Positions 11,197 to 54,039 of a stretch of DNA of 58,153 nucleotides are shown here, in pieces. Below the pieces are notes generated by a model. The model saw only the letters and a list, made by a program, of their open reading frames with translations. It was not told the DNA's origin and ran no database searches. Both the position numbers and the translations under genes were made by a program. How positions within the stretch are numbered: the first letter of the stretch is position 1; the number at the start of each line of letters is the position of its first letter. Source of the stretch: Nitrospirota bacterium (GTDB lineage Bacteria; Nitrospirota; Thermodesulfovibrionia; Thermodesulfovibrionales; UBA6898); the NCBI GenBank assembly GCA_016215155.1, contig JACRLQ010000089.1:1-58153 (forward strand). The letters are read 5' to 3'.

Positions 11197-11240
11197 AATG
11201 AGGTCTGAGGGAGGATGGCGCTGAGGTCGCTGGCTTGATT

Positions 11241-30000: not shown

Positions 30001-33000
30001 TGCTTAGTATGTCGCCGGGGCCCACCTCCACGAAATGCCTGACTCCGTAGTCATTCCGGAGGGTCCGGACATTATCCATCCAGTGGACGGTAGATTCCAG
30101 GTGGGACATCAGGATCCGCCTGATCTCAACGGGATCTGACGGATATGGCTCCATCGTGGTGTTGGAGATGACCGGAATCTGCGGGGGATGAAATGTAATG
30201 CCGGAAATATATGCCGCCAGCTCATCATGGATGACCCTCATTATGGGAGAGTGGAAGGCCATGCTGACCGGCAACATGGTGGCCCTGTACCCCATTGCCT
30301 TAATTTTTTTGCCAAGATCCTTGACCGCTCCGGTGCTGCCGCTCAGGACGATCTGGTTTGGAGAATTGATATTTCCGATATGGACGTTTCCCAGTCCCCG
30401 GATCATCTCTTTCAGCGGATCGAGGGGGACGTCCACGGCAGCCATAACGCCCGGTTCCACGTTCATGGCAGCGGCCTTGTCCATACAAAGGGCCCTCTTG
30501 TTCACAATACGGAACCCGTCTTCCGGGGAATACACGCCGGCCATGCACAGGGCGGTCAATTCGCCCAGGCTATGGCCGGCCATTGCCACGGGCCGGATGC
30601 CGAGGGCAGTGAGATATCTGGCCATGGCGTGTTCAATAGCGAACATGGCCGGCTGCTGCCAGCGGGTTTTTTGAAGATTCTCCTCCCGGTCGTGGAACAA
30701 TAAGTTAAGGAGGTCGAAGTCCGCCGCGGCAGCGGCCCTGTCCATCCACTCCCTGATGACCGGAAAAGACTCGTAGAGGTCCCGTCCCATTCCCGGATAC
30801 TGTGACCCCTGTCCCGGAAATACAAAGGCGAGCGGTCGCGCAGGCATTTCTTCGCGGCCGATGAAAATCCCCTGCTGCGCCAGAGACCTCACTACACCGG
30901 GAGAGTCGATTCCGGCTTCAGTAAGGTACGCCGACCTCCCGATTACCATGAGCGCCTCCTCTTTGGATGGCGCTACTACGGCGATGCGGCAGTTTTTGTC
31001 TTCGAGCTCAGTCCGGAAGAAAGAGACGCCCTGCATAGTTGCATCAATAGCTGACGGACCGCCTGACATCTCTACGTCGCGGACCGGATGCCCACCCTGC
31101 AATGCCATGACCGTATCCCGGTCATCCATGGCCTGTTCCACCTGGACCACATAGTTGGAACCCCCAAACCCGAAGGCGTTGACCTGAAGCCTTCTGGGTT
31201 GGCCGCTTCCGCGGTTCCAGTCGAGCGGTTCCCGTGCTATGAAGAGACCCGATCCATCCAGTGAGATTTCCGGGTCCGGATGCTGATAATTGAGGGTGGG
31301 AGGGAAAATCCCCGCCTTCATGGCTGTTACTCCCCGAATCAGACTGTTAAGGCCGGAAGCCCCCAGTGTGTGTCCGATCTGTGATTTGAATGCCGTGAGG
31401 ACTGTCCGCCTTGAGGGATCAAAGACGGCCTTCAGAGCGCGTACCTCTTCCACGTCTCCCTGCCGGGTGCTTGTGGCATGACATTCGACCAGGTCCACTG
31501 CATCCGGTCCATATGGTGTCCCATCGAAAGAGGCGCGGATGGCCATCTGCTGGCTGACACTGGAGGATTCCACCATGCCGAGATTGTTGTTGCTCGCGCC
31601 CATGCCTGTGATGACGGCGTGGAGACACGCCCCTCTTTTGCGCGCAAGATCTTCGCGTTCGATTACGATCATTCCCCCGCCTTCGCCAAGGACCATCCCG
31701 CCTCTTTCGGCATCGAAGGGGCGGGAGGCTTCCTGCGCGGGTCTTTCCTTTTCGGACAGACCATAGAGCGCGCCCAACGCCGAGAATTCCAGAAAATGCA
31801 GGTGGGTGAGGGTCTCCTCTCCCCCGCCGACGATGGCTGCATCGAGGATGCCGGTCCGGACCATCTGTATGGCGCTGTAGAGCGCGACCAGTGAGGTGGC
31901 ACAGGCTGCGGAAACAGCGTAGCTCGGCCCCATAAAACCGTATCTGTTACAGATGAAGCCGGCTGCGGCGGAGTTGAGTCTGCCCAGGAGTGTAGTGTCG
32001 TCCGGTGCAATACGTCCTGATTTTACCTCTCGTTCGATGGCGCTTTGCTGCTCAGGCGTGAGGGGGACGGCTCTTTTTACTGCGGCAAGTATATCATGAA
32101 CGTACGCCCTGATTATCGTATTGTTGAGGGCCCCTGCAGCCTCTCCCGAGTTTTGGGAGACGAAGACCCCGATTCTTTCGCGTGGGATGTCCGATTCCAG
32201 GATGCCGGATGCCCGGATGGCCCTGTCCGCAAGCCACAGGGTGAGCTTGGTCGCGTCGGTCATGCTCCTGAAATCATGAGGCGGGATGCCCAATTCATGG
32301 CGTGATACATTAAAATCCAGAAAGGCGCCCACCTTGCAATAGGTCTTGTCCGGAATCTGCGGCCGGGGGTCATAAAAAAGTCCGTGGTCCCAACGGGAAG
32401 GCGGGACTAAGGTAATGCCGCTCTTCATGGCAAGGCTTGCAGTCCAGACTTCCTCGGGAGTATTCCCCAGTGCATTGAGTATACTCATCCCGGTGATGGC
32501 AACCCTCTCCTGATCGTATATGGCACGACAGTCTCCGCCCGGATATCCTCTGGTCGGCGCGCTCCTTCTAATTCCGCCGCTGACCTCTGAGGCCTTAGTT
32601 CCAGGAGTTTCCTCTGCCACCGCAAAAACGGGCTGATGAAGATCAAAAGGGCCTTCCGCCAGTTCGGCGTGAAAGGACTTAAGCGCGAGGACCTCACCGA
32701 TAAGTCCGGCGCACGACCCGCTCATGAATTGTCCGCGCTCAATACAGGCCCTCTCATCCAGAGGGGTCTCACCCGGCCTGTCCATTCCCCGGGCCGCGGC
32801 GAAGAGGCTGCCGGCGGCCATCTCCTCCATCTTTGCCCTGAAGGCTGGTTCGTCCTCACGGCCTGCCGCAAACTCCCTTTCGAGCGATAAAATAGCTTCT
32901 ACTTTAGGGGTCCTCAGAGACCGTACACGAAGGCCGGTGTCCTTTCCTGTAACGACCGCAGCCCCGGGAGGCGATTTTAAAATCATCCGCTGGTAGAGCG

Positions 33001-41231: not shown

Positions 41232-41540
41232 ATGATAAGGACACTGATATTGTCAGCTGCATCTGCCTGCGCTGTCTTTGCCTGCCTGCTTTCCACGGCG
41301 GTCTTTGCCGCTGATGTGAAGATTTGGTTAAGTGTCCCCGGCGTGACGTGAGCAAGTTCCGGCGTCGCGGCAAGTTCTGCCGCAAGGAACATTCCCGGAG
41401 TGAGCTTCGCCGACGATAACCCCGATGACCAGTCATTGACGGTGATTTTTGACGATGCAAAGACAGGGACCGATGCGATCAAAGAAGCGCTTAAGAAGGA
41501 CGGTTTCCCCGTTTCCGGAGAACCCAGGATAATTAAATAG
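41232..41540 (+). CDS. Candidate selenoprotein: periplasmic heavy-metal-associated (MerP/CopZ-like) protein with Sec in place of the first metal-binding Cys
   Basis: A GGAGG site six bases before ATG 41232 opens a 102-residue frame with one in-frame TGA at codon 40 (41349-41351). A signal peptide (ILSAASACAVFACLLSTAVFA) precedes a short betaalphabetabetaalphabeta domain: VPGVT-U-ASSGVAASSAARNIPGV, then LTVIFDD and AIKEALKKDGFPV. This matches HMA domains, where GMTCxxC binds metal. Sec replaces the first Cys and Ser the second. A strong bSECIS hairpin lies right after the TGA. The reading frame stays open for 62 codons to TAG and its 3' end overlaps comDE on the other strand by 8 bases. The role could be metal or selenium/mercury binding, or redox. 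Conventional gene finders would miss it. Confidence 0.82.
41356..41390 (+). other. bacterial SECIS element
   Basis: The lower stem GUUCC/GGAAC (5 bp) and upper stem GCGGCA/UGCCGC (6 bp) are separated by an internal loop. The 5-base apical loop AGUUC begins 21 nucleotides after the UGA. G at loop position 2 followed by U fits SelB-binding bSECIS rules. Confidence 0.8.
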
Positions 41541-42684
41541 AGCCTGGTCCCTTTATGAAGGCCTGCACCTGCTTTTTTATCTCCAGATGACCGACGGGTA
41601 TATTCGGCTGGTCGGTGTTGCCTGAAACCGCGATTACATGAATAAACCTCGGTCCATCTGTTTTTTCCCTGAGCGCGGAAACCAGGTCTTTTTTTGAGGC
41701 GGTCTTCAGGGTGTTATGCACCCCAAACCCCCTCGCCACGGCCTCGAGGTCCACGCATGAGCCTGTGAGCGTCGGCTGGTTGCCGGTCGACCCGTAAGAG
41801 CTGTTATCGATCGCCACCACGGTGAGGTTGGACGGGGCGGCATAGGCCAGGGTCGCAAGGGTCCCAGGGTTCATAAGCAGGCTGCCGTCGCCGTCGATCA
41901 CTACTACCTCTTTGTCGGTGGTAAGGCTTATTCCAAGCGCGATAGGGGTCGCCATGCCCATGCTCCCCAGCATGTAAAAATTCGACGGCTGGTGTTTCAG
42001 CGCGTAAAGTTCCTTCGACGGGACCCCAAGATTGCAGACAACAATCTTTGATCCCAGCCGGGCTGCAATCGCCTTAAGTATCTCAAAACGGGTATATTTG
42101 GGCAGAGGCGTTTTCAGTCCTGATTCCACGACTGCCGATGGCCTTCTGCCGGTCTTACGGACTATGGCCTCTCTTTTCGGCGCCTTTGCCGCGGACCCTT
42201 CCCATATGGCCGGGCTCAGGAGAAACGCGTGGGTCCTGTTATTTTTGAAGACCTCCCGGAGCTTCTTCTCAATCGTCTTGAAATCGTCAGAGCTTTGGAC
42301 CGTCGAAAACGGGATGCCTGAACCCCTCAGAATACCTGGCAGTCTCTGCCCCATCGGAAGCTGCGCCTCTATGCGTTCTTTGTAAATCCCCCGCTGGCTT
42401 ACGAAGATCGCAAGCGGCAGTTCATAAAAGCCCGTCAAAGACAGAAGCGCGTTTATCATGTTGCCTATGCCCGAACTCTGGACGAATATCGCGGGCCTCC
42501 TGCCGGAAAGCGCCGCCCCGGCGCATATGCCGACACCCTCTTCCTCCCTTGTAAGCGGCAGGTGGAAAAAACTGTCAGGGAGCATCTCCAGAAGGACCTT
42601 GATCTTCTCGCAGGGGAGGGAACAGGTGAAGTCCACCCCTGACCGTGTCAATACGGCAATCAGTTCTTCTTCAGGACTGAACAC
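41533..42684 (-). CDS. comDE: Sulfopyruvate decarboxylase, fused alpha-beta (ComDE)
   Basis: 383 residues from GTG 42684, chosen because GGAG lies five bases before it and the text MFSPEEELIAVLTRSGVDF starts at the usual place. The frame could extend 30 codons more, but those overlap cysteate synthase. The N-terminal half is ComD-like (FTCSLPCEKIKVLLEML; LPLTREEEGVGICAGAALSG). The C-terminal half is ComE-like with the thiamine-diphosphate motif GDGSLLMNPG...DNSSYGSTG. The enzyme decarboxylates sulfopyruvate to sulfoacetaldehyde in coenzyme M synthesis. The overlap with cysteate synthase gives a two-gene unit like that of Methanosarcina-type CoM synthesis. Confidence 0.9.
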   Translation of the reverse strand: MFSPEEELIAVLTRSGVDFTCSLPCEKIKVLLEMLPDSFFHLPLTREEEGVGICAGAALSGRRPAIFVQSSGIGNMINALLSLTGFYELPLAIFVSQRGIYKERIEAQLPMGQRLPGILRGSGIPFSTVQSSDDFKTIEKKLREVFKNNRTHAFLLSPAIWEGSAAKAPKREAIVRKTGRRPSAVVESGLKTPLPKYTRFEILKAIAARLGSKIVVCNLGVPSKELYALKHQPSNFYMLGSMGMATPIALGISLTTDKEVVVIDGDGSLLMNPGTLATLAYAAPSNLTVVAIDNSSYGSTGNQPTLTGSCVDLEAVARGFGVHNTLKTASKKDLVSALREKTDGPRFIHVIAVSGNTDQPNIPVGHLEIKKQVQAFIKGPGSI

Positions 42685-43916
42685 AGGATCTCCGATATAT
42701 CGTGGTCCGATATTTTTTTTGAAATTACGACGGGTTCGACGTTGTACCTCATTTTGTCCGCCCCGAGTCTGCACTCTCCGCCGCCCGTAATATTCAGAAG
42801 GACCGTCTCACTACTTTTTACGGACCCTTCCGACACGGCCCGCCTCAGGGCCCCGACGGCCACGCCGGCAGCCGGTACGATATCGATGCCCTCCTCTTTT
42901 TCGAACAGGTCCATGGCATAGTATACCTCATCGTTTACGATGCCATACATTTGTCCGCCCGAGGCCTTCATGGCGTCATAGACCCCGCCCGTTACGGAAT
43001 AGGCCGGATATCGGGTCGAAAGCACCCTCGTGGTTATCTCCCCTATGAGTTCGGGTCTCAGGTCTTCAGGGAACAGGGCCCTGCTGTCTTTGTGCCAGGC
43101 CTTGACCATCGGGGCAAACGGCAGGTTCTGGGCGAGATGCATCTTGGGCAGGGTGTTGCCGAAGCGGCCGTCCCTGATAAGCCTCTCGGACATCTCCCAG
43201 ACCCCTATGCCCCCGGTGCCGCTTCCGACAGCCTGAAAATAATGGTCCGGGAGTCTTCCGATAAAGGACACGGCGGAGAGCATGGTGGAGCCCAGGCCGT
43301 CACGCTTGGCGATATTTTTCACTCCGCCCTCGAATGGGAAGCCTGATATGCCGGCTATTCTTTTTGCGACGTCTATGGCATCGGAATAATCTCCGTCGGA
43401 GACAGTAACGGTCGGGACCTTCGAGGACTTCTCAAGGTACCACATCTCCTGAAGGCACATAATCGGCACGACGATGATGACCGGGAACCCTGATACCACG
43501 GAGAGGTGCGCGAAGGCCCGCGCGGTGTTTCCGGCAGATGCGACGACAAGGCCCTCGATCCTGTTTTCGACCGCGTTCTGAAGCACTACCGCGGCCTCAA
43601 ACTCCTTGAAGGTGCAAGTCTGAAGGTCCGCCCCCATTTCAGGCCAATAGCCGTTGAAGGCGATGTAGAGATTGTCGAGTCCGAGTGACTTTCCAAGACC
43701 TTTTGATTTATATGCGACCGTCCCGGGCTGGGGAAATGAGGGGGTATGGACCGGAAGCCATCTGAACCGCCATATCCCTTCTCCGAGATCGTCCCTGAAT
43801 TCCCTGTCCTTATACACACTGACAAGGAGCGAGTCCCTGCAGTGTTCGCAAAAGGCGCAATATACCTCGGTAAGTTCCTTGCCGCATCTTCTGCACTTTA
43901 TCGTGAAGTGGCTCAT
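42660..43916 (-). CDS. Cysteate synthase (threonine-synthase-like, PLP)
   Basis: 418 residues. An N-terminal Cys-rich zinc-ribbon-like segment (CRRCGKELTEVYCAFCEHC) is followed by the cysteate-synthase hallmark IAFNGYWPEMGADLQTCTFKEFEA, with the PLP Lys probably in CTFKE. Further motifs are SAGNTARAF, VGSGTGGIGVWE and LLNITGGGE. Ordinary threonine synthase has SFKDR and lacks the GYWPE block. The enzyme makes L-cysteate from O-phosphoserine and sulfite, the first step of the Methanosarcinales CoM route. It overlaps the HdrD-like gene by 4 bases and comDE by 25. Cysteate-to-sulfopyruvate transamination is not encoded here and may use a general aspartate aminotransferase. Confidence 0.88.
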   Translation of the reverse strand: MSHFTIKCRRCGKELTEVYCAFCEHCRDSLLVSVYKDREFRDDLGEGIWRFRWLPVHTPSFPQPGTVAYKSKGLGKSLGLDNLYIAFNGYWPEMGADLQTCTFKEFEAAVVLQNAVENRIEGLVVASAGNTARAFAHLSVVSGFPVIIVVPIMCLQEMWYLEKSSKVPTVTVSDGDYSDAIDVAKRIAGISGFPFEGGVKNIAKRDGLGSTMLSAVSFIGRLPDHYFQAVGSGTGGIGVWEMSERLIRDGRFGNTLPKMHLAQNLPFAPMVKAWHKDSRALFPEDLRPELIGEITTRVLSTRYPAYSVTGGVYDAMKASGGQMYGIVNDEVYYAMDLFEKEEGIDIVPAAGVAVGALRRAVSEGSVKSSETVLLNITGGGECRLGADKMRYNVEPVVISKKISDHDISEILCSVLKKN

Positions 43917-45181
43917 CCATTTCCCCTTTCTACGAATTCAGAAAATAGTTCCATAATGTCAACTATGCGTATCCTGTTTTTATGGTCCTGCATCGCCTCA
44001 TTGACCTTGCCGTAACAGGCGGGACAGCTGAGGACCAGCCTGTCGGCTTTCTTCTCCACCGCCTCGTCTATCGCTAGTCTGCCCATCGCAATGGCGTTTT
44101 CATGGAAGACCTTGCGGACCGCGCCCCCGGCCCCGCAGCAGCGGGAGTTCAACCCATGACGCTCAAACTCTAGAAGCTCAACGCCCGGGATGCTCCTTAG
44201 CACATCCCTTGGCTCCTCGATAATCCCCACACCCCTGCTTAAGTAGCATGGGTCATGGTAGATAAGCCTTTCCCTCAGTTGCCGTTTTACGGCTATCTTC
44301 CCGCTTTTCAGGGCCGCAGATACATATTGCGTCATGTGGAGCACCCTGAAGGGCAGCTCCCTTCCGTAAAATGAAGGCCAATGTCTCGTCATTACGTTTA
44401 CGCAGCATGGACAGGAGCATATCAGGGTCTTTACCCCCTTTGCCGCGTATGACTCAACAAGACGCTTTGTGATCTCCTCAAGCATATCATGCTGACCCGA
44501 GATAAAAAGCGGAAAGCCGCAGCAGACCTCGTCTTTTTCAGAAAGCATCGTAAACGGCGCGCCGATCGTCCCGAGCACAAGCGCGTCGCCGCGCACCATC
44601 GGCTGCGCCTGATAGGCGCCTGAACATCCGGCGTAATAGGCTATCTCCGCCTTGTCCAGCACCTCCACTGATTCGGGGAACCAGGGTTTATACCGGTCTT
44701 CCGTGGGGGAGTTGTAGGGATTGCCTGATTTCCTGATCGCCTCCGGCATATCAGTCAGGAGCTTATAGTCCACCATGCCCCTTTCGATCATCTCTTTCCT
44801 GAGATAAGGCCAGAGCCTCTGGGTGAAGATACCGACCGTGCACTGCTGTCCGCAGGCCCCGCACGTCGTGCATTCAAATACGGCCCTTGTAAATTCCTCA
44901 AGGAGTTTTCTGTCGGCCTCATTTTTTCCGAGGAAGCGCGCCTTAAGTCCGGCAGTGGCCTTTATGAACTGTCTGAACATCCTGATCTTCTCAGGGGGCG
45001 ATATGGCAGGTCTGCCCGTGACCTCCTGGACCGGGCAGGCCTTAAGGCATTCCCCGCACCCGGTACAGGAATCAAGCTCGATCAGCTGAAGCGGAGACAG
45101 GTTTTCGGTGAATGACCCGCCACAGGCGGGTCTTACTTTCTGACTGTCTTTACGGGTATCAACTTTGCCGCCGTCGGACAT
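43913..45181 (-). CDS. HdrD/DsrK-like Fe-S protein with two CCG domains
   Basis: 422 residues from ATG 45181 with GGAG five bases upstream; the frame extends 17 codons further but runs into the neighbouring gene. Two [4Fe-4S] sites lie at about residues 43 (CTGCGECLKACP) and 103 (CTTCGACGQQC). Two CCG domains have VCCGFPL near 220 with CSCPCCVNV, and RCCGAGGAVRK near 347. CCG domains hold the unusual cluster that cleaves disulfides in heterodisulfide reductase HdrD and in DsrK/TmcB. With the preceding cytochrome b gene it forms an HdrED-like membrane pair. Location directly before CoM-synthesis genes suggests a CoM-containing disulfide substrate, though GlpC-like or DsrMK-like roles remain possible. 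Confidence 0.85.
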   Translation of the reverse strand: MSDGGKVDTRKDSQKVRPACGGSFTENLSPLQLIELDSCTGCGECLKACPVQEVTGRPAISPPEKIRMFRQFIKATAGLKARFLGKNEADRKLLEEFTRAVFECTTCGACGQQCTVGIFTQRLWPYLRKEMIERGMVDYKLLTDMPEAIRKSGNPYNSPTEDRYKPWFPESVEVLDKAEIAYYAGCSGAYQAQPMVRGDALVLGTIGAPFTMLSEKDEVCCGFPLFISGQHDMLEEITKRLVESYAAKGVKTLICSCPCCVNVMTRHWPSFYGRELPFRVLHMTQYVSAALKSGKIAVKRQLRERLIYHDPCYLSRGVGIIEEPRDVLRSIPGVELLEFERHGLNSRCCGAGGAVRKVFHENAIAMGRLAIDEAVEKKADRLVLSCPACYGKVNEAMQDHKNRIRIVDIMELFSEFVERGNG

Positions 45182-45194
45182 GTCAACTCCGGTT

Positions 45195-45878
45195 TTATTT
45201 TTCATGCATAACCAGAGGAAGGGACTCTTCACGTCTTCTGGCCTCCATTGTTATGACGGGAGCGGAAAAGACATGGGACGGAAGGAGCAGCGCAAGAAGA
45301 AAAAAGACCGCTGTGTGAATCAAAAACAGATAGCTTCCCCCGACGTGTGTAGGATGAAACGCGAGGAGGCCCAGAGAAAATTCCTTTATGAGCAGAAGAT
45401 CGGGTTTAAAAAAGTTCAGCATAAAGAGACCTGTCAGGCTGATTAGAAGCGTAAGCCCCAATACGAGATAATTATCATAGGTCAGATACCTGTGTTTAAT
45501 TGAAATTGTACGTATGGAAAGAAGATACAGGATGGAAGCCGGGAGGACATATCCGGCGACTATTCCGCAGACCTGCATGTCCTGGACCCAAAAAGGAACA
45601 GGGTCTGTAAAATATCTCAGATGCCTTATGCATACCAAAAAGAATGATACATGGAAAAGCATAGAGCCGAACCATAGAGGCCCGCTAGAGACAAAGACCC
45701 TGCGGAAGGTCAATAAATCAATAATCATGAGGACCCATGTGCCCGGGGATGTCCTCCGCTTTTGGGTGTATCTCCCGGGCGGGCCGGGCGCCCTCAGCCA
45801 TAGAAGCAGGTGCCACAGCAGGCGCAGGCAGAATGTAAAATAAACAATATATGCTATGGCAGCAAGTATCAAGGACAT
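45195..45878 (-). CDS. HdrE/DsrM/NarI-like cytochrome b membrane subunit
   Basis: 227 residues with five membrane helices (LILAAIAYIVYFTFCLRLLW at the N-terminus). Conserved His residues in GSMLFHVSFFLVCIRHLRYF and LLAFHPTH...LIHTAVFF would bind haem b. The domain is that of nitrate reductase gamma subunits, as in HdrE and DsrM, which pass electrons between quinone and a cytoplasmic Fe-S partner. The partner is the HdrD-like gene 13 bases downstream. The start lacks a strong ribosome site. Confidence 0.85.
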   Translation of the reverse strand: MSLILAAIAYIVYFTFCLRLLWHLLLWLRAPGPPGRYTQKRRTSPGTWVLMIIDLLTFRRVFVSSGPLWFGSMLFHVSFFLVCIRHLRYFTDPVPFWVQDMQVCGIVAGYVLPASILYLLSIRTISIKHRYLTYDNYLVLGLTLLISLTGLFMLNFFKPDLLLIKEFSLGLLAFHPTHVGGSYLFLIHTAVFFLLALLLPSHVFSAPVITMEARRREESLPLVMHEK

Positions 45879-45931
45879 TATCTTCTATGTTAACCCTTTC
45901 AGATGTATAAAAAAATTCCCCCTCACCCAAA

Positions 45932-45953
45932 CCTTCTCCCTACAGGGAGAAGG
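45932..45953. repeat. Palindromic intergenic repeat
   Basis: A perfect 10-bp inverted repeat (CCTTCTCCCT / AGGGAGAAGG, 2-base loop) lies in the 90-base gap between the small conserved gene and the cytochrome b gene. Confidence 0.75.
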
Positions 45954-45968
45954 TGTCCCGATAATCAG

Positions 45969-46292
45969 TTATTCTGATTTGTTGCGCATGAAATGCATCG
46001 TCACGTCTCTGGGCACCGCAAGGCCGGCCTCGACCTCCAGGGCCTTTAGGATTCCTGCCGGAACTGGGCAGGCAACATGCCTGAGGCATGCTGCCCCCTT
46101 CGTATAGACAGGATTTTCTAGCAGCCGCCGAAACGCGTCCATCAGTGTAAGTTCTTCGAGCTCGAAGCCGAGTTTCTGGACCATCTTGCATTCTGATTCC
46201 AGCTTCACAGAGAAGGTTTTTTTGTCCTTCTGCTGAACTTCCACCGTGACCTGTGTTCCGCAGGCTCCGGGGTCGATAATAAGCCTTGTCAT
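45969..46292 (-). CDS. Small conserved protein, DUF6951-like
   Basis: 107 residues. The opening IDPGACG-x-VTVE, the Cys in ESECKMVQKLG and the C-terminal ACLRHVACPVPAGILKALEVEAG give four to five conserved Cys residues. Proteins of this form sit beside RACo-type activators and corrinoid methyltransferases. The function is unknown; metal or cofactor binding is a reasonable guess from the Cys pattern. It lies 15 bases after the activator gene. Confidence 0.6.
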   Translation of the reverse strand: MTRLIIDPGACGTQVTVEVQQKDKKTFSVKLESECKMVQKLGFELEELTLMDAFRRLLENPVYTKGAACLRHVACPVPAGILKALEVEAGLAVPRDVTMHFMRNKSE

Positions 46293-46307
46293 GCCGGGGC
46301 CGGTCTC

Positions 46308-48299
46308 CTACCCTTTGATGCCTGCGGCCGCGGGGGCCTTCTGACCTTCGAGCAGCGCCTTCAGATTAGGGAATTTGTCTTTCATGTGAGGTATATGCAT
46401 CGCCTGCATGAACTCCTTTTCGAACGTAGGTTCAGTCGCTATCTCGACAAATTCGACCCATCTGGCGCGCTCGTCGGCTTCTTTGCGCTTGTTTTTATTG
46501 AGCAGGGCCATCCTGGAGCCGTCGCCTGCGGCATTTCCCACCACGACCACCTTGTCAATCGGGACATCCGGGAACAGGCCGAGGGTCAGCGACGCCTCCC
46601 GGTCGATATGGCTCCCGAAGGCCCCGGCGAGCTCGACACGGTCCAGCTTCGTGACCCCCATCTTTTGCATCATCAGTTTGACGCCGGCATATAGGGCGCC
46701 CTTTGCAAGCTGAAGCGCCCTCACGTCTCCCTGTGTTACCGTGATGTCCTGGTCGATGGAAGTCTCCCCGGCCCAGGCAAGAACATACTCGGGCTTACCT
46801 TCCGCATTCTTTCTGACCCTGTTTGTGCCCAGGTCGGAAACGAATTTGCCGGACTTGTCGATTATGCCGGCCTTGAACATCTCGGCGATAACGTCTATGA
46901 TGGCTGAACCGCATATGCCCTTAGCGTTGATCTTGCCTTCTATGTGGGTGTGCCAGTCTGCCTTGCCTATGACCTTATACCTGGGCTCCTTTGTCTCATA
47001 ATCTATTTTTACCTTTTCTATGGCCCCCGGTGCTGCTCTCATGCCGAACTTTATCTGAGCGCCTTCAAAAGCTGGACCCGTTGCGCAAGACGTCGAGCAG
47101 ACCCTGTCTTTGTTGCCAAGGAGGAGTTCCCCGTTGGTGCCTATATCGATAATCAGGACCATATCGTCCTGGAAATACTGTTCCTGGGCGATAAGGACAC
47201 CCACGTTATCAGCGCCTACGAACCCTGCCTCGATAGGCAGCACATGGATGAATGCGCCGGGGTTTATCTTAAGCCCCAGGTCTCGGGCCTTGATGTCAAG
47301 GGACTGCTGGACGGCAGGGATGAAGGGCGAGCGCCCGATATAAACAGGGTTCAGGCCGAGGAATATATGGTGCATCGCGGTATTAAAAACTATCGTCAGA
47401 TCATCTATCGCATGGCCCGGGTGAGGGCCGTCTTTCCTTATTTCAGATACGACCTTGTCTATGATCTCATTGAGGCCTGTTATGATCGCATCCTGCATCG
47501 TCTTTAGGCCTTCAGGGTTCGTCATCGCGTAGGTAATCCTCGACATGACATCCTCACCATAGGGGACCTGCGGGTTCATGATAGATTCCGTGTTGATGAC
47601 GCTCCCCGTGGACATGTCACAGAGATAGCCGACACAGGTGGTTGTTCCTATGTCAACTGCAAGACCATAGCAGACATCGACATGACCGGGTTCCACCTTG
47701 ATGATCTCCTTATCCATCCATACGGTCACCGTTATAGTCCAATCGCCGTTACGCAGGGCATCCTGGAGCTGCAGCAGTGCCTCGAAATCAAATTTCAGGC
47801 CCTTGATTCCATAGATTTCATCGATCCTGCTTATTACCCTTTCATAATCGCCTGTTGTCATGTCATGAAGGGTCGGCGGGGTGAAGGTCAACACATATTT
47901 TTTGACTGCGGGGTCGAGCGCAATGATCAACTCCTTTGCCGCTTTTCTAACCACCTGCTTGCCGGCCCTCGACCTCTCAGGTACAAATACCTTCAGGTCG
48001 CCGTGTATTTCGCAGGAGCAGGCAAGCCTGATGCCCGGGCCGTCCTCAGGTTTTATATGTTTTAATTCATCCGCGGTCGGCTCCTGAGGGGTAATATGAG
48101 ACATCCTCGATTCCATGTTGTCTTTTTCGAAATAGCCTTCTTCTATCCTGACCTTGCATTTCCCGCAGACCTTCTTGTCTCCGCAGAGCGCCTCGAGGTC
48201 AACGCCCAGCCGCTGGGCTGCCTTCAATATCGTAGTGCCTTCCTCTATTTCTCCACGCCGGCCAGCCGGCTGGAATATTACCTTGAATGTGCGACCCAT
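46308..48299 (-). CDS. Corrinoid activation protein, RACo/MtoD-type (ferredoxin plus ASKHA domain)
   Basis: 663 residues with AGGAGG before the ATG. The N-terminal [2Fe-2S] ferredoxin domain has CGDKKVCGKCKVRI and LACSCEIHG. A middle domain leads to an ASKHA ATPase part with VDIGTTTCVGYLCD, FNTAMHHIFLGL, IDIGTNGELLLG and ELAGAFGSHID. RACo-type proteins use ATP and an electron to return inactive Co(II) corrinoid proteins to Co(I). The corrinoid protein and methyltransferases are in the same run of genes. Length and domain order are normal for the family. Confidence 0.93.
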   Translation of the reverse strand: MGRTFKVIFQPAGRRGEIEEGTTILKAAQRLGVDLEALCGDKKVCGKCKVRIEEGYFEKDNMESRMSHITPQEPTADELKHIKPEDGPGIRLACSCEIHGDLKVFVPERSRAGKQVVRKAAKELIIALDPAVKKYVLTFTPPTLHDMTTGDYERVISRIDEIYGIKGLKFDFEALLQLQDALRNGDWTITVTVWMDKEIIKVEPGHVDVCYGLAVDIGTTTCVGYLCDMSTGSVINTESIMNPQVPYGEDVMSRITYAMTNPEGLKTMQDAIITGLNEIIDKVVSEIRKDGPHPGHAIDDLTIVFNTAMHHIFLGLNPVYIGRSPFIPAVQQSLDIKARDLGLKINPGAFIHVLPIEAGFVGADNVGVLIAQEQYFQDDMVLIIDIGTNGELLLGNKDRVCSTSCATGPAFEGAQIKFGMRAAPGAIEKVKIDYETKEPRYKVIGKADWHTHIEGKINAKGICGSAIIDVIAEMFKAGIIDKSGKFVSDLGTNRVRKNAEGKPEYVLAWAGETSIDQDITVTQGDVRALQLAKGALYAGVKLMMQKMGVTKLDRVELAGAFGSHIDREASLTLGLFPDVPIDKVVVVGNAAGDGSRMALLNKNKRKEADERARWVEFVEIATEPTFEKEFMQAMHIPHMKDKFPNLKALLEGQKAPAAAGIKG

Positions 48300-48367
48300 T
48301 TGTCAATCCTCCTGATTGTTATTCTTGCGAATACCTCAAAATATTTAATGTGCATTATTCAGAAAAT

Positions 48368-48470
48368 CTCCCTCACCCTCTTTTCCTGAGAGGGGAATTA
48401 TGCCTCCCTTAGGAAAAGGGAGGTTGCCCGCCTCTGGCGGCGCCAAAGGCGACCAGGGGGTAGGAGGGAT
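48368..48470. repeat. G/C-rich palindromic repeats upstream of the activator gene
   Basis: Overlapping inverted repeats (CTCTTTTCCTGAGAGG-like, CCTCCCTTAGGAAAAGGGAGG, GCCTCTGGCGGC) fill this 222-base intergenic stretch (48300-48521). The rest shows nothing recognisable. Confidence 0.65.
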
Positions 48471-48521
48471 TTTATAATGTAATGCCTATTTTGCGATTGT
48501 TAATAGTTTATTCTTTTCCAT

Positions 48522-49178
48522 TCAACCCGAATTTTTTAGCTCAGCGTTCCTAATATTTCTGGAATACGGACATACTGTTATGCAGAAACCGCAGTTTGGT
48601 TTTTCATCAAGCGCGGTCCTGTTTTTTTTCAGCGACCTGCATTTTTCATACACCACCAGTTCCTTTAATGGGTCGCCGAGGGACCACAGATGTCCCTTAA
48701 GGGCCTTTGAAGGGCAGTGCGTCACACAGAGTTCGCAGTCTCCGCACTCTGACTCGGACGTCGGCTCATCAGGGATGAACGCCGCATTCGTAAGCACCGT
48801 GGCCCAGGACAATTTTGAGCCGTATTGCCTGTTTATCAAAAGCCCGTTTTTACCTATCCAGCCCAGGCCCGAGCAGGTCGCGGCCGTCTTATGGCAAAAG
48901 AGCTTATAAAGCCTGCTGATATATTTCCCGTTTTTTCTGTCCGAGTCGGGCGGGATTAAAAGACTTCTGAACCCCCGGACCTTAAGCCAGCCTGACGCCA
49001 GGTCCTGCAGCCCCGAAAGCAGCTCCACGGTCTCGGCCCCGAGGCCCCTGTTTACCGCAATCGCTATGCCGCGGTCCAGATGAGAGATCTCACTCGACAG
49101 GGCCGCGGTAACATCGCCGACCCCTACAAGGGTCGCGCCTTCACGCAGCAAAAACCGCTTCAGGGCATCAGACTCCAC
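48522..49178 (-). CDS. Double [4Fe-4S] protein, QueG-like, linked to the corrinoid system
   Basis: 218 residues from a GTG. The N-terminal part (REGATLVGVGDV, AIAVNRGLGAETVELL) and middle (KTAATCSGLGWIGKNGLLINRQYGS) resemble epoxyqueuosine reductase/QueG-related proteins. The ferredoxin motifs are CGDCELCVTHCP and CGFCITVCPYSR. It is shorter than QueG and lacks the C-terminal HEAT region, so tRNA modification is unlikely. Proteins of this type occur with corrinoid methyltransferases, probably as electron donors or corrinoid handlers. It follows the corrinoid protein gene by 3 bases. Confidence 0.75.
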   Translation of the reverse strand: MESDALKRFLLREGATLVGVGDVTAALSSEISHLDRGIAIAVNRGLGAETVELLSGLQDLASGWLKVRGFRSLLIPPDSDRKNGKYISRLYKLFCHKTAATCSGLGWIGKNGLLINRQYGSKLSWATVLTNAAFIPDEPTSESECGDCELCVTHCPSKALKGHLWSLGDPLKELVVYEKCRSLKKNRTALDEKPNCGFCITVCPYSRNIRNAELKNSG

Positions 49179-49181
49179 GAC

Positions 49182-49865
49182 CTATTTATTCAGCTTCTCA
49201 TCCCTTAGTTTTTTAAGGAATGCAACCATCTTGATGGCTTCCTTCAGTGCGTTTCCGGCGTCCTCGGCATAGCCGTCAGCGCCCCATTTGTCAGCCAGCT
49301 CTTTCGAAGTGGGTGCGCCTCCGATCATGATCATGCAGTCGGGGTTCTTTTCTTTTATCTTTTCGATGACCTTCGGCATTCCGACCATCGAGGTCGTCAT
49401 CATGGCCGAAAGACATACAAGCTCGGAGTCGGTTTTTATCTGTTCCTCGACGAACTGGTCAAGAGGCACGTCCCTGCCAAGGTCATAGACAGTAAAGCCC
49501 GCCACATCGAACATCATTCTCACAAGGTTTTTCCCGATGTCATGCACATCGCCTTCCACAGTGCCTATGACCACGGACCCCCTGACGCCCAGGTCCATCT
49601 GCTTGCAATGCGGCTTCAGTATGTCGAGCCCTGCGTAAAGGGCATCGGCGCACATGAGGATCTCGGGCACGAAATACTCCTGGGCCTCAAAGAGCCTGCC
49701 CACCTCCTCCATGCCGGAGACCAGGCCGTCAAATATGGCCTCGTTGGCGTCCAGCCCCGCATCGACCGCCTCCTGGGCACCTTCTCTGCAGGCGTCCTCG
49801 TCATACTGGATGACCCCGTTTCTGAGTTTTTCAAGGATCTCTTTCTTTTTTGTTTCATCTGCCAT
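49182..49865 (-). CDS. Corrinoid methyl-carrier protein (MtoC/MtbC-like)
   Basis: 227 residues. A helical cap domain (ETFDG-like stretch NEAIFDGLVSGMEEVGRLFE; YFVPEILMCADALYAGL) is followed by the B12-binding fold with DVHDIGKN near residue 105, whose His is the lower Co ligand, and GGAPTSKELADKWGADGYAEDA at the end. It carries the methyl group between a substrate-specific methyltransferase and an acceptor enzyme. Its ATG overlaps the preceding stop (TAATG), so the two are translationally coupled. Confidence 0.95.
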   Translation of the reverse strand: MADETKKKEILEKLRNGVIQYDEDACREGAQEAVDAGLDANEAIFDGLVSGMEEVGRLFEAQEYFVPEILMCADALYAGLDILKPHCKQMDLGVRGSVVIGTVEGDVHDIGKNLVRMMFDVAGFTVYDLGRDVPLDQFVEEQIKTDSELVCLSAMMTTSMVGMPKVIEKIKEKNPDCMIMIGGAPTSKELADKWGADGYAEDAGNALKEAIKMVAFLKKLRDEKLNK

Positions 49866-50890
49866 TACTTTTTACCTCCATATTTTTTAATTTCATCCAT
49901 CATCGCAATCATGTTCTGTGGAGGGACCGTAGGCCAAATATCGCAGCCCGGCCATACGGCGCTCACCCCGTCATCGATGCATTTTCTCATTGTCGAGCGG
50001 ACCAGTTCCTCGGTCCCGGAGACCAGGACATTGTATGCGTCGAAATTGCCGAAGATCAGGGCGCTGTCGCCCAGTTTCTTCCTTGTCTCGACGACATCGT
50101 TTTTATGCTCTACGCTGATGGCGGTGGGACCGGCCTCCATCATGGACTCAACGATATCGTTCGTTTTGCCGCAGATATGGAGCACGGAACTGACGGACAG
50201 GGCGCTATGGACCTTCTTAAGCGGAGGGAGGATCAGGTTTTTAAATACCCTCGGGCTGAGCACGTCGCTCGTTGCGCCCATCTCCCTGACGGTTATATAG
50301 TCAACACCGGCCTTCTCATATTCCTTCGCTACTATTATGATGGCGTCGGCCATCAGGTCGAGAAGCTTCGCTACCTTGTCGGCCTTTTTGAACGAAAGCT
50401 TGAGAAGGTCGTTTAGCTCCATGATCTGTCCCGCAAGGGTAAACGGACCAAGCACGTAGGAGCCGACTGCGACTTCGCTGCCGATATCGGCCTTGAGGAT
50501 CCGGATCGCCTCCCGCATCAAAGGCACCCTGCCTCTTTCAGAGAGGTCAGCCGGGACCTGAATGTCCATTTCGTCTTCGTTATGGATAAGCTTTTCCTTG
50601 ATCGTGGGATAGAGTATGCCCTCCGCGTGGGGATAGACATTGATCACGCAGCCAAGCGCCTCCGCCTCCACGCAGAGATCTACCGGCACTATTCCGCATT
50701 CGTAGCCATACAGCCTGAACGTCGAGGCTGCTGTCTCCGCCATCTGCCTGGCGTCAAGGTGTATGCCCGCAAATCTGTATCCAAGCGTATTTATTCCGGT
50801 CTCCGTGATGTTTCCCATGCCGCTGAAACACGGGACCCTGTCGATGGGTTCCTTTCTGAAAAGCTTTAAGACCCTTTCTCTTGAATTCAT
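49865..50890 (-). CDS. UroD-family methyltransferase, MtaA/MtoB-like (first copy)
   Basis: 341 residues from ATG 50890, eleven bases after GGAGAAG; a TTG seven codons earlier overlaps that site. Family features: NSRERVLKLFRKEPIDRVPCF at the start, GPFTLAGQIM, and the zinc motif HICG near 236 with a distant Cys in PGCDIWP near 315. In MtaA/MtbA this His-Cys...Cys zinc site binds the CoM thiolate; in MtoB/OdmB relatives it handles aromatic O-methyl groups. Either role is possible. It is coupled to the corrinoid protein gene by a 1-base overlap and follows the MtrH-like gene by 26 bases. Confidence 0.88.
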   Translation of the reverse strand: MNSRERVLKLFRKEPIDRVPCFSGMGNITETGINTLGYRFAGIHLDARQMAETAASTFRLYGYECGIVPVDLCVEAEALGCVINVYPHAEGILYPTIKEKLIHNEDEMDIQVPADLSERGRVPLMREAIRILKADIGSEVAVGSYVLGPFTLAGQIMELNDLLKLSFKKADKVAKLLDLMADAIIIVAKEYEKAGVDYITVREMGATSDVLSPRVFKNLILPPLKKVHSALSVSSVLHICGKTNDIVESMMEAGPTAISVEHKNDVVETRKKLGDSALIFGNFDAYNVLVSGTEELVRSTMRKCIDDGVSAVWPGCDIWPTVPPQNMIAMMDEIKKYGGKK

Positions 50891-50916
50891 TAAAATAACT
50901 TCTCCTTTCAAAATGG

Positions 50917-51873
50917 TTATTTACCTTTTTTCCTTGAACCGCCCTCCGTGATCTTTGTAATAAACTCGCCGAAATATTTTCGGAGGGGAAGTTCAGGATT
51001 GTCGTATATGATCCCCGTTTCATCGAAGACGAAGGTTGAGAGCATCATATGGGCGCTCGCCACGGCGGGGAATACCCTGGGGGCGGTAACGGCCGGCCCG
51101 CAGAAGTTGAAGTCGGACCAGAGAGCGGAAGACATGCCCTGTACCACGGCATCCATCGCTTTGAACCCGTCCATGCCCCAGATCTCCTTGATCTCCTTCC
51201 ACATATGCGTGCCGTTCGAATACGCGCCGCCGCAGGGCAGACCGTGTTTTTCCTTTATCATCCTGTTTGCGACGAGCGAAAATGAGGTCGAAGGCATATT
51301 CATGACAGAAGTATCGACGATAACGGTCTCAAACGAGTCCGCTCCCTGGGCCATGATCGACTCAAGTGACTTGACCCGGCCGGACGGGGACTGGTCCTGA
51401 TCGTCAAATGCCTGTATAACGACATGTTTTATCCCAAGGTCTTTCAGGCGTTCCACCTGCCCTTTAATGTCCTTGTCCCAGGGAGTAATGCTGTTATAAA
51501 GGAATTTGTGCTGAACCCCGAGTTTGGAAACATATTCCGTGGCCTTTGCGCGCTGCTCGGCGACCCACATGTCGATGCCGAAGGGCATGTCCGTCGTTTC
51601 GAGGAAGAAATCGATGTAAATCTTCGCCTCCTCGGGCGAATTGGCGACCATCGCGACCATGCCGGGAATGCCTGTAACCTTTGAGAGTTCTTCCTGTTTT
51701 TTTATGATCTCCGTGGCCCTGGCCCTGTCGAAATTGCCCTTCCTGTCCACGACTATCCTGTCTTTGTTGTGGAACATAGACGATATCATCAGTGGCGGAT
51801 TTTCGCCTGGCTGTCCCCCGATCTTTATACCATTTATATTAAAGACCTTCTGTTGTTTCTCGAATGTAAACAT
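50917..51873 (-). CDS. MtrH-family methyltransferase (MtgA/MtoA-like)
   Basis: 318 residues from ATG 51873, five bases after AAGGAG; a frame extending 14 codons upstream has no such site. Family text: FNINGIKIGGQPGENPPLMISSMFHNKD, PGMVAMVANSPEEAKIYIDFF, GIDMWVAEQRAKATEYV, GLPCGGAYSNGTHMW. MtrH-type enzymes move methyl between tetrahydro(methano)pterin and a corrinoid. Bacterial relatives serve glycine-betaine and O-demethylation systems with tetrahydrofolate. Here it would connect the corrinoid protein to the pterin pool. Confidence 0.92.
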   Translation of the reverse strand: MFTFEKQQKVFNINGIKIGGQPGENPPLMISSMFHNKDRIVVDRKGNFDRARATEIIKKQEELSKVTGIPGMVAMVANSPEEAKIYIDFFLETTDMPFGIDMWVAEQRAKATEYVSKLGVQHKFLYNSITPWDKDIKGQVERLKDLGIKHVVIQAFDDQDQSPSGRVKSLESIMAQGADSFETVIVDTSVMNMPSTSFSLVANRMIKEKHGLPCGGAYSNGTHMWKEIKEIWGMDGFKAMDAVVQGMSSALWSDFNFCGPAVTAPRVFPAVASAHMMLSTFVFDETGIIYDNPELPLRKYFGEFITKITEGGSRKKGK

Positions 51874-51922
51874 TAAATCTCCTTGTCCCTGATTTGTGCT
51901 AAAATATGTCATCACTTACTTG

Positions 51923-51965
51923 GGGCAGCTCTGTCAGAGATTAAACAGGCTGCCCTCTTTTTTTG
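51923..51965 (+). terminator. Hairpin with T tract upstream of the MtrH-like gene
   Basis: GGGCAGC/GCTGCCC plus CTGT/ACAG form an 11-bp stem with one bulged T, followed on the plus strand by TCTTTTTTTT. No plus-strand gene ends here. On the minus strand the same hairpin would lie in the leader of the MtrH-like gene, where it may act in RNA processing or as a block to antisense transcription. Confidence 0.5.
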
Positions 51966-51973
51966 CTCAGCCA

Positions 51974-52030
51974 TTAACGCCCCCAGGCTTCGCCTCTCCC
52001 CCTCTTAAGATAAGAGGGGGTTAAAGGGGA
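51974..52030. repeat. Palindromic intergenic repeat
   Basis: A perfect 10-bp inverted repeat CCCCCTCTTA/TAAGAGGGGG (51998-52020) lies within a longer C-rich/G-rich pair, between the CMD and MtrH-like genes. Confidence 0.75.
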
Positions 52031-52043
52031 GTTATGATTTTCC

Positions 52044-52490
52044 TTAAAATACCCCATGATCAAACTTGGGCGCAGGCAGGTATTCCCACTTTTCGCCCTT
52101 TCTGTATTTTGCCTCTATATCAAGGCACTTAAGAGCGTATTCGAAGGCATACGGTATGCCGGGGCCGCCCGGAACAAAACCGGCCAGGATCATACCTACG
52201 GACGCGGCCTCAAAGATCTCACCGGTCGTTGCGCCTGCATTGATCGCCGGAATGACATGGATTATGCATCTGGGGGAACAGTAGCCTACGCCGCCCGACA
52301 TGAACATAAGTTCCTTGGTCTTTCTTGAAAGCGCGCCGTCTCCGAATATGCTCTCATAAAAATCGGCGAAGGTCCTGCCCGGATCGGGGGTAACGGTGTT
52401 GATGATCTGGAACATCCTCGGCACAAAACCGCATTTTTTCTTCATGTAGTCATTTACTTCTTCAACAGTCATCTTTTTCTCGTCTGTCAT
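52044..52490 (-). CDS. Carboxymuconolactone-decarboxylase (AhpD-like) family protein
   Basis: 148 residues from ATG 52490 preceded by GGGAGG; the longer frame upstream is not needed. The CMD helical core has DFYESIFGDGALSRKTKELMFMSGG and the redox-type pair CSPRC near residue 69, followed by HVIPAINAGATTGEIFEAA. AhpD-type proteins use two such Cys residues as a thiol reductant. The spacing here is C-x3-C rather than C-x2-C. Members often occur in corrinoid methyltransferase clusters. A small hairpin (CCGGCC/GGCCGG) lies before its ribosome site in the 145-base gap to the upstream gene. Confidence 0.82.
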   Translation of the reverse strand: MTDEKKMTVEEVNDYMKKKCGFVPRMFQIINTVTPDPGRTFADFYESIFGDGALSRKTKELMFMSGGVGYCSPRCIIHVIPAINAGATTGEIFEAASVGMILAGFVPGGPGIPYAFEYALKCLDIEAKYRKGEKWEYLPAPKFDHGVF

Positions 52491-52635
52491 TTCTGTTTCC
52501 TCCCTTGTTTTTCTCCGGCCCCAAGGCCGGAAACTGCCTGATGATATCAATTATTCCCATCGTCTCCTCCCGGATTGTATGGGTCAGACCTCACGCCAAA
52601 AATGCTTCACCTCCCTTCTTCTCAGGAACCGTTAC

Positions 52636-53676
52636 TCAGTATTTCCAGTTAAACGCCGTGTCATGGAACATCCTCAGGTTCTCGTAGGGTATTGTCGGCG
52701 GGATATCGCACCCTGGGACGAGGACGAACCCTCCGTCCCTGCCGGCTATTTCTATCACTTCCTTACACGCGGCTTCGACCTCCGCCGCGGTCTTGTTCAA
52801 AAGCACATGCACGGGCGCCACGTTACCCCCGAAGCACATCTTCCCGAAGAGGACTTCTTTTGCCTTCGCGATGTCCACCTTCTGGTCGAAGAATATGGCG
52901 CTGCAGCCGGTGTCTATGAACTGTTCGAGCCGGTCTCCGGTGTTTCCGCATATATGAAGGATGGTATGGGCGTTTTTTGATTTCGCCCAGTCGCTCAGCT
53001 TTTTCAGTGGCGGGACCGCGAACCTGGCCATCTGCTTGGGGTTAATGAGATCGCCTGAGGCGGTGGGGTCCGCTATACTCAGACACTGGATCGAGCCGTC
53101 ATCCACCAGGGGGGCATAAAGGTGGATGAGAAGGTCGGCGCAGAAATTCACCATCTTTTCCACGAGGGCCGGCTTCTTGAAGGTATATTTCATGAAGGCC
53201 TCTTCCCCCACAAACCGCGCGGCAAGGGTGAACGGTCCCCAGCAGGTCATAGTGACGAGATATTTGCTGCCTATCGCCCTGTTGACCAGACGTGTCGCCT
53301 CGAACACGTTATTGATGACAGGGTCCCTGAAAAGATCGTCCATATTGAGTTTATCGATCACTTCTTCCGAATCAACGAAATGTTTCGTGAGGTCGGGGGC
53401 GCCTATCTCCCTGTACTTTATACCGGCCCCGAAGGCGGTCCCCAAAGCCGAGGCATGGAAGTTGTTGAAGCCTGAGCCGACATACACCACGTCGCTCCTG
53501 ATCCTCTCGGCCTCCTTGATGCACATGTCGGCCATTTTTTTTTCGTCTTTGGCGAGTTCCTCGAAGCTCGATCCGTAGTCCCTTATGCTCCACATACCGC
53601 CTCCGAAAAGCGTTACAGGGACCCTCTCGGGTCTTCCCCCGTCAAATGCCTTCAGAATAATCTCTTTCGGTTCCAT
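52636..53676 (-). CDS. UroD-family methyltransferase, MtaA/MtoB-like (second copy)
   Basis: 346 residues. GGRPERVPVTLFGGGMW at the start, WGPFTLAARFVG, HICG near residue 240 and PGCDIPPTIPYENL near 320 show the UroD-type barrel with the zinc-binding His-Cys...Cys of corrinoid methyltransferases. True uroporphyrinogen decarboxylase lacks this zinc set. It diverges clearly from the copy at 49865-50890, so one may demethylate the substrate and the other pass methyl to a thiol. It is the first enzyme gene in the run, 18 bases after the receiver-protein gene. Confidence 0.88.
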   Translation of the reverse strand: MEPKEIILKAFDGGRPERVPVTLFGGGMWSIRDYGSSFEELAKDEKKMADMCIKEAERIRSDVVYVGSGFNNFHASALGTAFGAGIKYREIGAPDLTKHFVDSEEVIDKLNMDDLFRDPVINNVFEATRLVNRAIGSKYLVTMTCWGPFTLAARFVGEEAFMKYTFKKPALVEKMVNFCADLLIHLYAPLVDDGSIQCLSIADPTASGDLINPKQMARFAVPPLKKLSDWAKSKNAHTILHICGNTGDRLEQFIDTGCSAIFFDQKVDIAKAKEVLFGKMCFGGNVAPVHVLLNKTAAEVEAACKEVIEIAGRDGGFVLVPGCDIPPTIPYENLRMFHDTAFNWKY

Positions 53677-53694
53677 GTTTCCCCCTTTTTTTAT

Positions 53695-54039
53695 TTAGTG
53701 TGTGTATTTAAGAGTATGGAGTCCATTCAATGTGCGCTTGAACTCATCGAGGTCCAGCGGTGATTCTATGCTCAGCGCGTCAGAGCCAATTTTATCATAT
53801 CCTATGAATATTACAAGCATATCGGGCACGATCGTCCTGATGATCTTGATCGCGTCGTCAACGGTAAGTCCGAAGGGTTCCGAGTCGATGATCAGCGCGG
53901 CATATGTCTTTTTGAGGACCATCTGGACGGCAAGGGAAGGGTGTTCAGCGGTTTCGACACCATAACCCTCGTCCCTGAGCATCCCGTAGAGGCTTCTGGT
54001 CAGCAGCTGGTTGTTCGAGCATAGCAATAAGTCAGTCAT
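53695..54039 (-). CDS. Degenerate stand-alone receiver-domain protein
   Basis: 114 residues with the CheY-like alternation of beta and alpha segments: LLLCSNNQLLTRSLYGMLRDEGYGVETAE, ALIIDSEPFGLTVDDAIKII, DMLVIFIGYD. Asp52 stands where phosphorylation occurs, but the acidic pair near the N-terminus is replaced by Cys-Ser-Asn-Asn and the conserved Lys near the end is not evident. It probably works without phosphorylation, as a protein-binding module. Position at the head of the methyltransferase operon suggests a regulatory link. Its start codon lies at the centre of a 30-bp palindrome. Confidence 0.7.
   Translation of the reverse strand: MTDLLLCSNNQLLTRSLYGMLRDEGYGVETAEHPSLAVQMVLKKTYAALIIDSEPFGLTVDDAIKIIRTIVPDMLVIFIGYDKIGSDALSIESPLDLDEFKRTLNGLHTLKYTH

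Follow-up and report, generated by a model that had tools for sequence, protein, structure and literature searches.

Gene content and organisation of the cluster

The window analysed here is a 58,153-nucleotide (nt) stretch of DNA from a Nitrospirota bacterium of the class Thermodesulfovibrionia (assembly GCA_016215155.1, contig JACRLQ010000089.1). The minus strand carries, at 41533–54039, a cluster that combines genes for corrinoid-dependent methyl transfer with genes for cysteate synthase (CS) and a fused sulfopyruvate decarboxylase (ComDE), enzymes that also occur in an archaeal route to coenzyme M (CoM). All 13 open reading frames (ORFs), each on the minus strand, were re-found by an ORF check and family scans (Pfam, NCBIfam), and their identities agree with those given in an initial annotation of this DNA (Table 1). 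RR-like proteins, corresponding to the first gene, were found at the equivalent place in loci L090, L155, L159, L190, L194, L197, L201 and L203.

Table 1. Genes of the cluster, listed from its first gene to its last
Gene	Product	Position	Strand	Basis
RR	Receiver-like small protein	53695..54039	-	Pfam Response_reg, weak (16.9 bits, cut-off 30.2)
UroD1	MtaA/CmuA-like corrinoid methyltransferase	52636..53676	-	PF01208, 194 bits; TIGR01463 below cut-off; zinc site H241-x-C243...C323
CMD	CMD/AhpD-like protein	52044..52550	-	PF02627; C95, H98 and C142 kept in 36 sequences
MtrH	MtrH-family methylcorrinoid:tetrahydrofolate methyltransferase	50917..51915	-	PF02007, 180 bits; PRK00979, 335.9 (cut-off 287)
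UroD2	Methylcobalamin:CoM methyltransferase-like protein	49865..50911	-	PF01208, 225 bits; PRK06252, 244.9 (cut-off 244); zinc site H245-x-C247...C323
Corr	Corrinoid (B12-binding) methyl carrier protein	49182..49865	-	PF02310, PF02607, TIGR02370; two B12-binding domains
QueG	Short QueG-like 2x[4Fe-4S] protein	48522..49178	-	Fer4_16; eight cluster Cys kept in 48 sequences
RACo	RACo-type corrinoid reductive activase	46308..48299	-	Pfam RACo linker, middle and C-terminal domains; Fer2
DUF6951	DUF6951 small protein	45969..46292	-	PF22263, 102.8 bits; three invariant Cys and one His
HdrE	HdrE/DsrM-like small membrane b-type cytochrome	45195..45878	-	Partial match to NCBIfam DsrM
HdrD	HdrD-like iron–sulfur subunit	43913..45232	-	PF02754 twice (two CCG domains); two [4Fe-4S] motifs
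CS	Cysteate synthase	42660..43916	-	TIGR03844, 478.6 bits (cut-off 324.9); tree
ComDE	Fused sulfopyruvate decarboxylase	41533..42774	-	TIGR03845, 183.2 (cut-off 147.95); TIGR03846, 225.3 (cut-off 221.5)

The overlapping starts and stops that had been taken to show a single unit are present in four gene pairs (UroD2/Corr, HdrE/HdrD, HdrD/CS and CS/ComDE), but other cluster genes are separated by gaps of 85, 128, 222 and 90 bp. Because of these gaps, the overlaps alone do not prove one transcript, and the unity of the operon rests better on conserved gene order, which is described below. The annotated ComDE start at 42774 is probably too far upstream; a start at 42684 is likelier, judging from the 25-nt overlap usual among relatives. 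Short, G+C-rich elements resembling palindromic repeats lie within operon gaps near 45920, 48380–48450 and 52000.

Conservation and co-occurrence in Nitrospirota

The sample comprised 199 genomes around the host, with named relatives in Nitrospirota, several of them labelled Thermodesulfovibrionia. Gene order was compared across 60 surrounding loci, read as far as their contigs extend, and the 54 loci with at least four cluster genes were counted. The shared order UroD1–CMD–MtrH–UroD2–Corr–QueG–RACo–DUF6951–(FolD)–HdrE–HdrD–CS–ComDE is kept in 53 of these 54. CS scores above its cut-off in 64 of the 199 genomes and is closely associated with MtrH: 61 genomes contain both, three contain CS only, nine MtrH only and 126 neither (p = 2e-37), and two of the nine genomes with MtrH only carry a split or partial CS. 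The cluster is thus real and ancient, with chance excluded, and the linkage of CS and ComDE to MtrH, RACo and UroD, which had been proposed from this one stretch, is conserved throughout a class of uncultured bacteria and is near-obligate. In nine loci (L038, L042, L047, L048, L058, L060, L061, L068 and L088) a FolD gene separates DUF6951 from HdrE, which ties the cluster to folate one-carbon (C1) metabolism. The deep bacterial relatives L155 and L156 keep the methyltransferases and CS–ComDE in the absence of HdrE and HdrD (HdrED), and the link between the methyltransferases and the CoM genes is therefore independent of HdrED.

Methyltransferase clusters without the CoM genes, named in the initial annotation as a sign against its interpretation, were encountered in a few genomes only, some of which encode an ABC transporter protein of the sulfonate type within the cluster or close to it. 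Genomes G071 and G164 lack CS and ComDE but retain the methyltransferase cluster. A transporter-type binding protein of the NMT1/SsuA family is encoded between RACo and DUF6951 in G071, and likewise in G080 and at loci such as L041, where permease and ATPase genes follow it; such proteins also lie in or near the methyltransferase cluster at L052, L054, L194, L197 and L200, and G164 has a related binding-protein gene on a separate contig. CoM-auxotrophic methanogens import such a cofactor and, by analogy, these binding proteins may serve the uptake of a sulfonate cofactor here. Contig C61 of G080 (L197:14115-18238) carries HdrE–HdrD–ComDE together with the SsuA-fold protein discussed below and lacks CS. 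A second, divergent UroD–corrinoid–MtrH–RACo cluster of about 30% identity occurs on contig C35 of G071 (L195); it is perhaps a true demethylase system.

Cysteate synthase and ComDE

The genes for CS and ComDE are adjacent, and CS and both halves of ComDE exceed the curated NCBIfam cut-offs, which confirms ComDE as genuine. In the phylogenetic tree, bacterial and archaeal CS proteins together are split from the threonine synthase-like outgroup of the host itself with a support of 100/99, and bacterial CS proteins form their own branch (90/82). The split and the TIGR03844 score reject the possibility that the pyridoxal phosphate enzyme is a mis-annotated threonine synthase, the grouping that had been named as fatal to the initial assignment. 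Mis-binning of an archaeal contig is also ruled out, because the cluster recurs in fixed order in the 60 loci of many bacterial genomes and bacterial CS proteins form a branch of their own. While the identity of the enzymes comes from curated models, the reactions assigned to CS and ComDE are those expected of their families.

Methyltransferases and zinc sites

Both UroD proteins have the zinc-binding His-x-Cys...Cys site noted initially, and its ligands are conserved in 39 sequences of UroD1 and in 32 of UroD2. According to Kountz and Balskus (PMC10418091), S- and Se-methyltransferases of the UroD superfamily have a His-Cys-Cys site, while in O-methyltransferases one or both Cys are replaced, with carboxylates or other residues. 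The closest solved structure to UroD2 is that of MtaA (4ay7). Transfer of an S- or Se-methyl group, with a thiol substrate, is therefore favoured over O-demethylation for UroD1 and UroD2, and the match to the O-demethylation systems MtoABCD and OdmABCD, suggested in the initial annotation, is not supported. A system of this kind would pass methoxyl groups to folate, with the CoM enzymes attached to it. MtoABCD does possess the same four classes of proteins (UroD, MtrH, corrinoid protein and RACo-type activator), with an MtrH-like MtoA (PMC8630106), but the His-Cys-Cys site is invariant in both UroD families and CoM plays no part in the Mto system, making this explanation very unlikely. A CMD/AhpD-like protein is also encoded near CS–ComDE in an archaeon (L161).

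HdrED and DUF6951

HdrD contains two complete CCG motifs, C-x33-CC-x35-CxxC and C-x35-CC-x36-CxxC, which are conserved in 54 sequences and correspond, twice, to the HdrDE-type motif CX31-39CCX35-36CXXC. Five His residues are conserved in HdrE (six sequences compared). As in HdrDE of Methanosarcinales, a cytochrome b subunit is paired with a two-CCG subunit; in contrast to that enzyme, the nearest sequence models for HdrED are the TfrB, DsrM and DsrK families, all below their cut-offs. The arrangement HdrE–HdrD–CS–ComDE, followed by the SsuA-fold protein, is also found in Hydrothermarchaeum (L167), where the proteins are 39% (HdrD, over 398 aa) and 45% (HdrE, over 264 aa) identical to those of a Thermodesulfovibrionia variant.

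DUF6951 is confined to MtrH-bearing genomes (65 of 65) and, among 14 control genomes, was found in Methanosarcina acetivorans only. Its predicted model (pLDDT 94) has a fold weakly like that of the sulfur or Fe-S scaffold proteins IscU/SufE (Z about 6).

The missing last step and the SsuA-fold candidate

In methanogens, sulfoacetaldehyde is converted to CoM by the CoM synthase MMP16/ComF (COG1900/PF01837; PMC12068725). The initial annotation suggested looking for this step elsewhere in the genome. The search rejected MMP16 for the host: PF01837 gave 0 matches in its own genome and is absent from 198 of the 199 genomes, with positive controls detected, and the single PF01837-bearing genome has no CS. 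Matches to PF01837 in the deep bacterial relatives G208 and G209 are probably of the homocysteine type; for that of G208, the MMP16 model gives 120 bits (cut-off 364).

A protein from a different family fits the gap. This protein, designated SBP, is cytosolic and has the sulfonate-binding (SsuA) fold. In four archaeal loci (Hecatella, Pyrohabitans, Hydrothermarchaeum and archaeon 128-326), its gene directly adjoins CS or comDE, and in over 20 loci of Thermodesulfovibrionia a homologue with 42–48% identity is encoded a short distance from comDE. The host copy (G000:C81:32307-33227; L185:8299-9231, minus strand) was found by a profile search with 467 bits and is not adjacent to permease genes. 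SBP has no signal peptide and has many kept residues, including two invariant Cys (C73 and C256) and several His. It is present in 61 of the 64 CS genomes and in six of the 135 without CS (both 61, CS only 3, SBP only 6, neither 129; p = 3e-40). The four SBP-bearing archaea have neither PF01837 nor Mcr (methyl-CoM reductase alpha subunit). Conversely, PF01837 occurs without a strong SBP in one genome each of Syntrophoarchaeum, Methanosarcinales and Methanosarcinaceae, two of which have Mcr; MMP16 was confirmed on the curated model in the latter two genomes. A Methanophagales genome has neither PF01837 nor SBP. The AlphaFold model of SBP (pLDDT 91) has an SsuA/TauA fold (Z about 28–29), which is also that of the enzymes Thi5, MqnD and the desulfinase DszB. 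The fold and gene linkage of SBP, its co-occurrence with CS and the fact that it and MMP16 exclude each other make it a candidate second CoM synthase that would replace MMP16. Such a candidate is important because MMP16 deletion mutants still grow (PMC12068725). For MMP16, formation of CoM has been demonstrated with MJ1681, in work cited by PMC12068725.

Two conserved proteins were noted in the vicinity of SBP. At L185–L188, the SBP gene lies near that of a protein of about 193 aa beginning 'MKEIKEIIDMGRRLDELA'. A Gly/Lys-rich protein of about 200 aa (family c1) is encoded downstream of ComDE in 18 loci, for example at L084:11735-12334 (oriented locus), mostly on the opposite strand and between ComDE and the SsuA-fold gene.

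Proposed pathway and alternatives

We lean towards the reading that the operon serves the making and use of CoM, or of a near-identical two-carbon sulfonate thiol, in a non-methanogenic bacterium. The CoM product, the methyl substrate, the direction of flux and the function of SBP are what we infer from the gene identities, conservation, co-occurrence and site types described above. CS would convert phosphoserine and sulfite to cysteate, an aminotransferase encoded elsewhere would convert cysteate to sulfopyruvate, ComDE would yield sulfoacetaldehyde, and SBP, in place of MMP16/ComF, would form the thiol. The zinc methyltransferases UroD2 and UroD1 may then exchange methyl groups between the thiol and the corrinoid protein, in a direction predicted only tentatively, with MtrH moving the methyl group to or from tetrahydrofolate and RACo and the QueG-like protein presumably keeping the corrinoid cobalt reduced. 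HdrED, in which a membrane cytochrome b is paired with a double-CCG subunit, may connect this thiol and its disulfide with the quinone pool. The mcr genes that the initial annotation proposed to look for were not found: Mcr was detected in 0 of 121 genomes searched, the host included, and the methyl group is therefore probably taken into or released from folate C1 metabolism and not turned into methane. A wider proposal, put forward tentatively and as somewhat less than probable, is that Thermodesulfovibrionia and several non-methanogenic archaea share a CoM route that ends in SBP, as a previously unrecognised CoM synthase not homologous to MMP16, and that the bacteria use CoM as both a methyl carrier and a thiol/disulfide couple, linked to folate and free of Mcr.

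Besides the absence of MMP16, several observations weigh against the formation and use of CoM by the operon. The host SBP gene lies outside it. SBP occurs without detected CS in G001, G012, G080 and G182 and in two genomes with a split or partial CS, and CS occurs without a strong SBP in G166, G171 and G176. HdrED is missing at some loci (L053, L155 and L156). UroD1 scores below every curated cut-off, and UroD2 exceeds only one (PRK06252), by 0.9 bits. The UroD of an unrelated cluster in G071 also has His-Cys...Cys and, since its residues are identical, the zinc site alone is insufficient to prove the substrate. DUF6951 tracks MtrH and not CS; for this reason, and with its IscU/SufE resemblance being weak, DUF6951 is the less likely candidate for the missing CoM synthase.

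The thiol may instead serve as a redox partner without carrying methyl groups, in which case HdrED would reduce the CoM disulfide or oxidise CoM against the quinone pool, while the methyltransferases would use another S-methyl compound or its analogue (methanethiol, dimethyl sulfide or methyl-selenide) and pass the methyl group to folate. HdrED–CS–ComDE is the most tightly spaced part of the cluster and recurs in Hydrothermarchaeum, where the bacterial methyltransferase set is not adjacent; type 1 mlp clusters, moreover, use S/Se-methyl compounds without CoM genes (PMC10418091). This explanation is nevertheless unlikely, given that L155 and L156 keep CS–ComDE and the methyltransferases with no HdrED and that CS and MtrH co-occur over the 199 genomes.

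Rather improbable, too, is a product other than CoM, namely another two-carbon sulfonate (taurine, isethionate or some product of sulfoacetaldehyde not yet described) that SBP binds or senses. The absence of MMP16, the sequence and fold of SBP, which are close to those of sulfonate-binding proteins, and the NMT1-type ABC transporter protein often present in or near the cluster agree with such a product. It would leave unexplained the near-obligate link with HdrED and with methyltransferases of the thiol type, and the features of SBP (no signal peptide, no adjacent permease genes in the host, two Cys and several His kept) also argue against it. Dissimilation of sulfonates, with cysteate and sulfopyruvate degraded to sulfite as an electron acceptor, would accord with the description of members of the order as sulfate reducers (PMC9469722) and with the sulfonate-type binding protein near some clusters, but is highly improbable, as family scans identified no sulfite-releasing enzyme (Xsc, IslA, SuyAB or CuyA) among the cluster genes, the methyltransferases and RACo would be purposeless and the CS family is biosynthetic.

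Comparison with known systems and significance

Bacterial CoM is known from alkene metabolism and from a separate pathway. The archaeal type 2 CoM biosynthesis of Methanosarcina (CS, ComDE and MMP16/ComF; PMC12068725) shares with the present cluster adjacent genes for CS and a fused ComDE; the cluster differs in being bacterial, in having SBP instead of MMP16, in being joined to methyltransferase and HdrED genes, and in the lack of Mcr. Synthesis of CoM in a bacterium, as proposed here, is a point in common with Xanthobacter, the pathway of which (Wu et al. 2022), in the account given by PMC12068725, has phosphoenolpyruvate as its starting point and differs from the archaeal versions, whereas the genes found here are those of a phosphoserine/cysteate route. 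Type 1 mlp clusters (PMC10418091) likewise contain several His-Cys-Cys UroD proteins, one corrinoid protein and one reductive activase. They have no tetrahydrofolate methylase, and PMC10418091 mentions no cysteate synthase, ComDE or MtrH, all of which occur here in fixed order. MtoABCD of Methermicoccus and Archaeoglobus (PMC8630106, PMC8359953) comprises a UroD-type methyltransferase, the MtrH-type MtoA, a corrinoid protein and an activator, as does the present cluster; there the substrate is a methoxyl group, CoM synthesis and HdrED genes are not described in the Mto cluster, and by the literature criterion the zinc site is of another type. The open-access literature searched yielded no account of a bacterial gene set of this kind, or of CoM in Nitrospirota, in line with the novelty claimed initially.

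If the proposed pathway is correct, a bacterial class that has archaeal CS and ComDE connected to methyl transfer of the thiol type and to an Hdr-like complex would make CoM a general C1 and redox cofactor of anaerobes, and CoM-dependent C1 metabolism would be neither restricted to archaea nor bound to methane. SBP offers a concrete candidate for the missing CoM synthase, and the cluster bears on the question of whether CoM metabolism is older than methanogenesis. Subsurface lineages that are relatives of sulfate reducers commonly carry the cluster, and it may therefore alter how metagenomes are read with respect to C1 and sulfur compounds.

Other features of the window

Outside the cluster, the window encodes a polyketide/polyunsaturated-fatty-acid synthase-like protein of 2554 aa (27038–34702; NMO, KS, AT, ACP, KR and DH domains); downstream of it lie genes of the ABC-2 transporter type and of the sulfatase family. 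Giant surface-type proteins with Ig-like/carboxypeptidase-regulatory domains are encoded at 558–9782 and 11235–16550.

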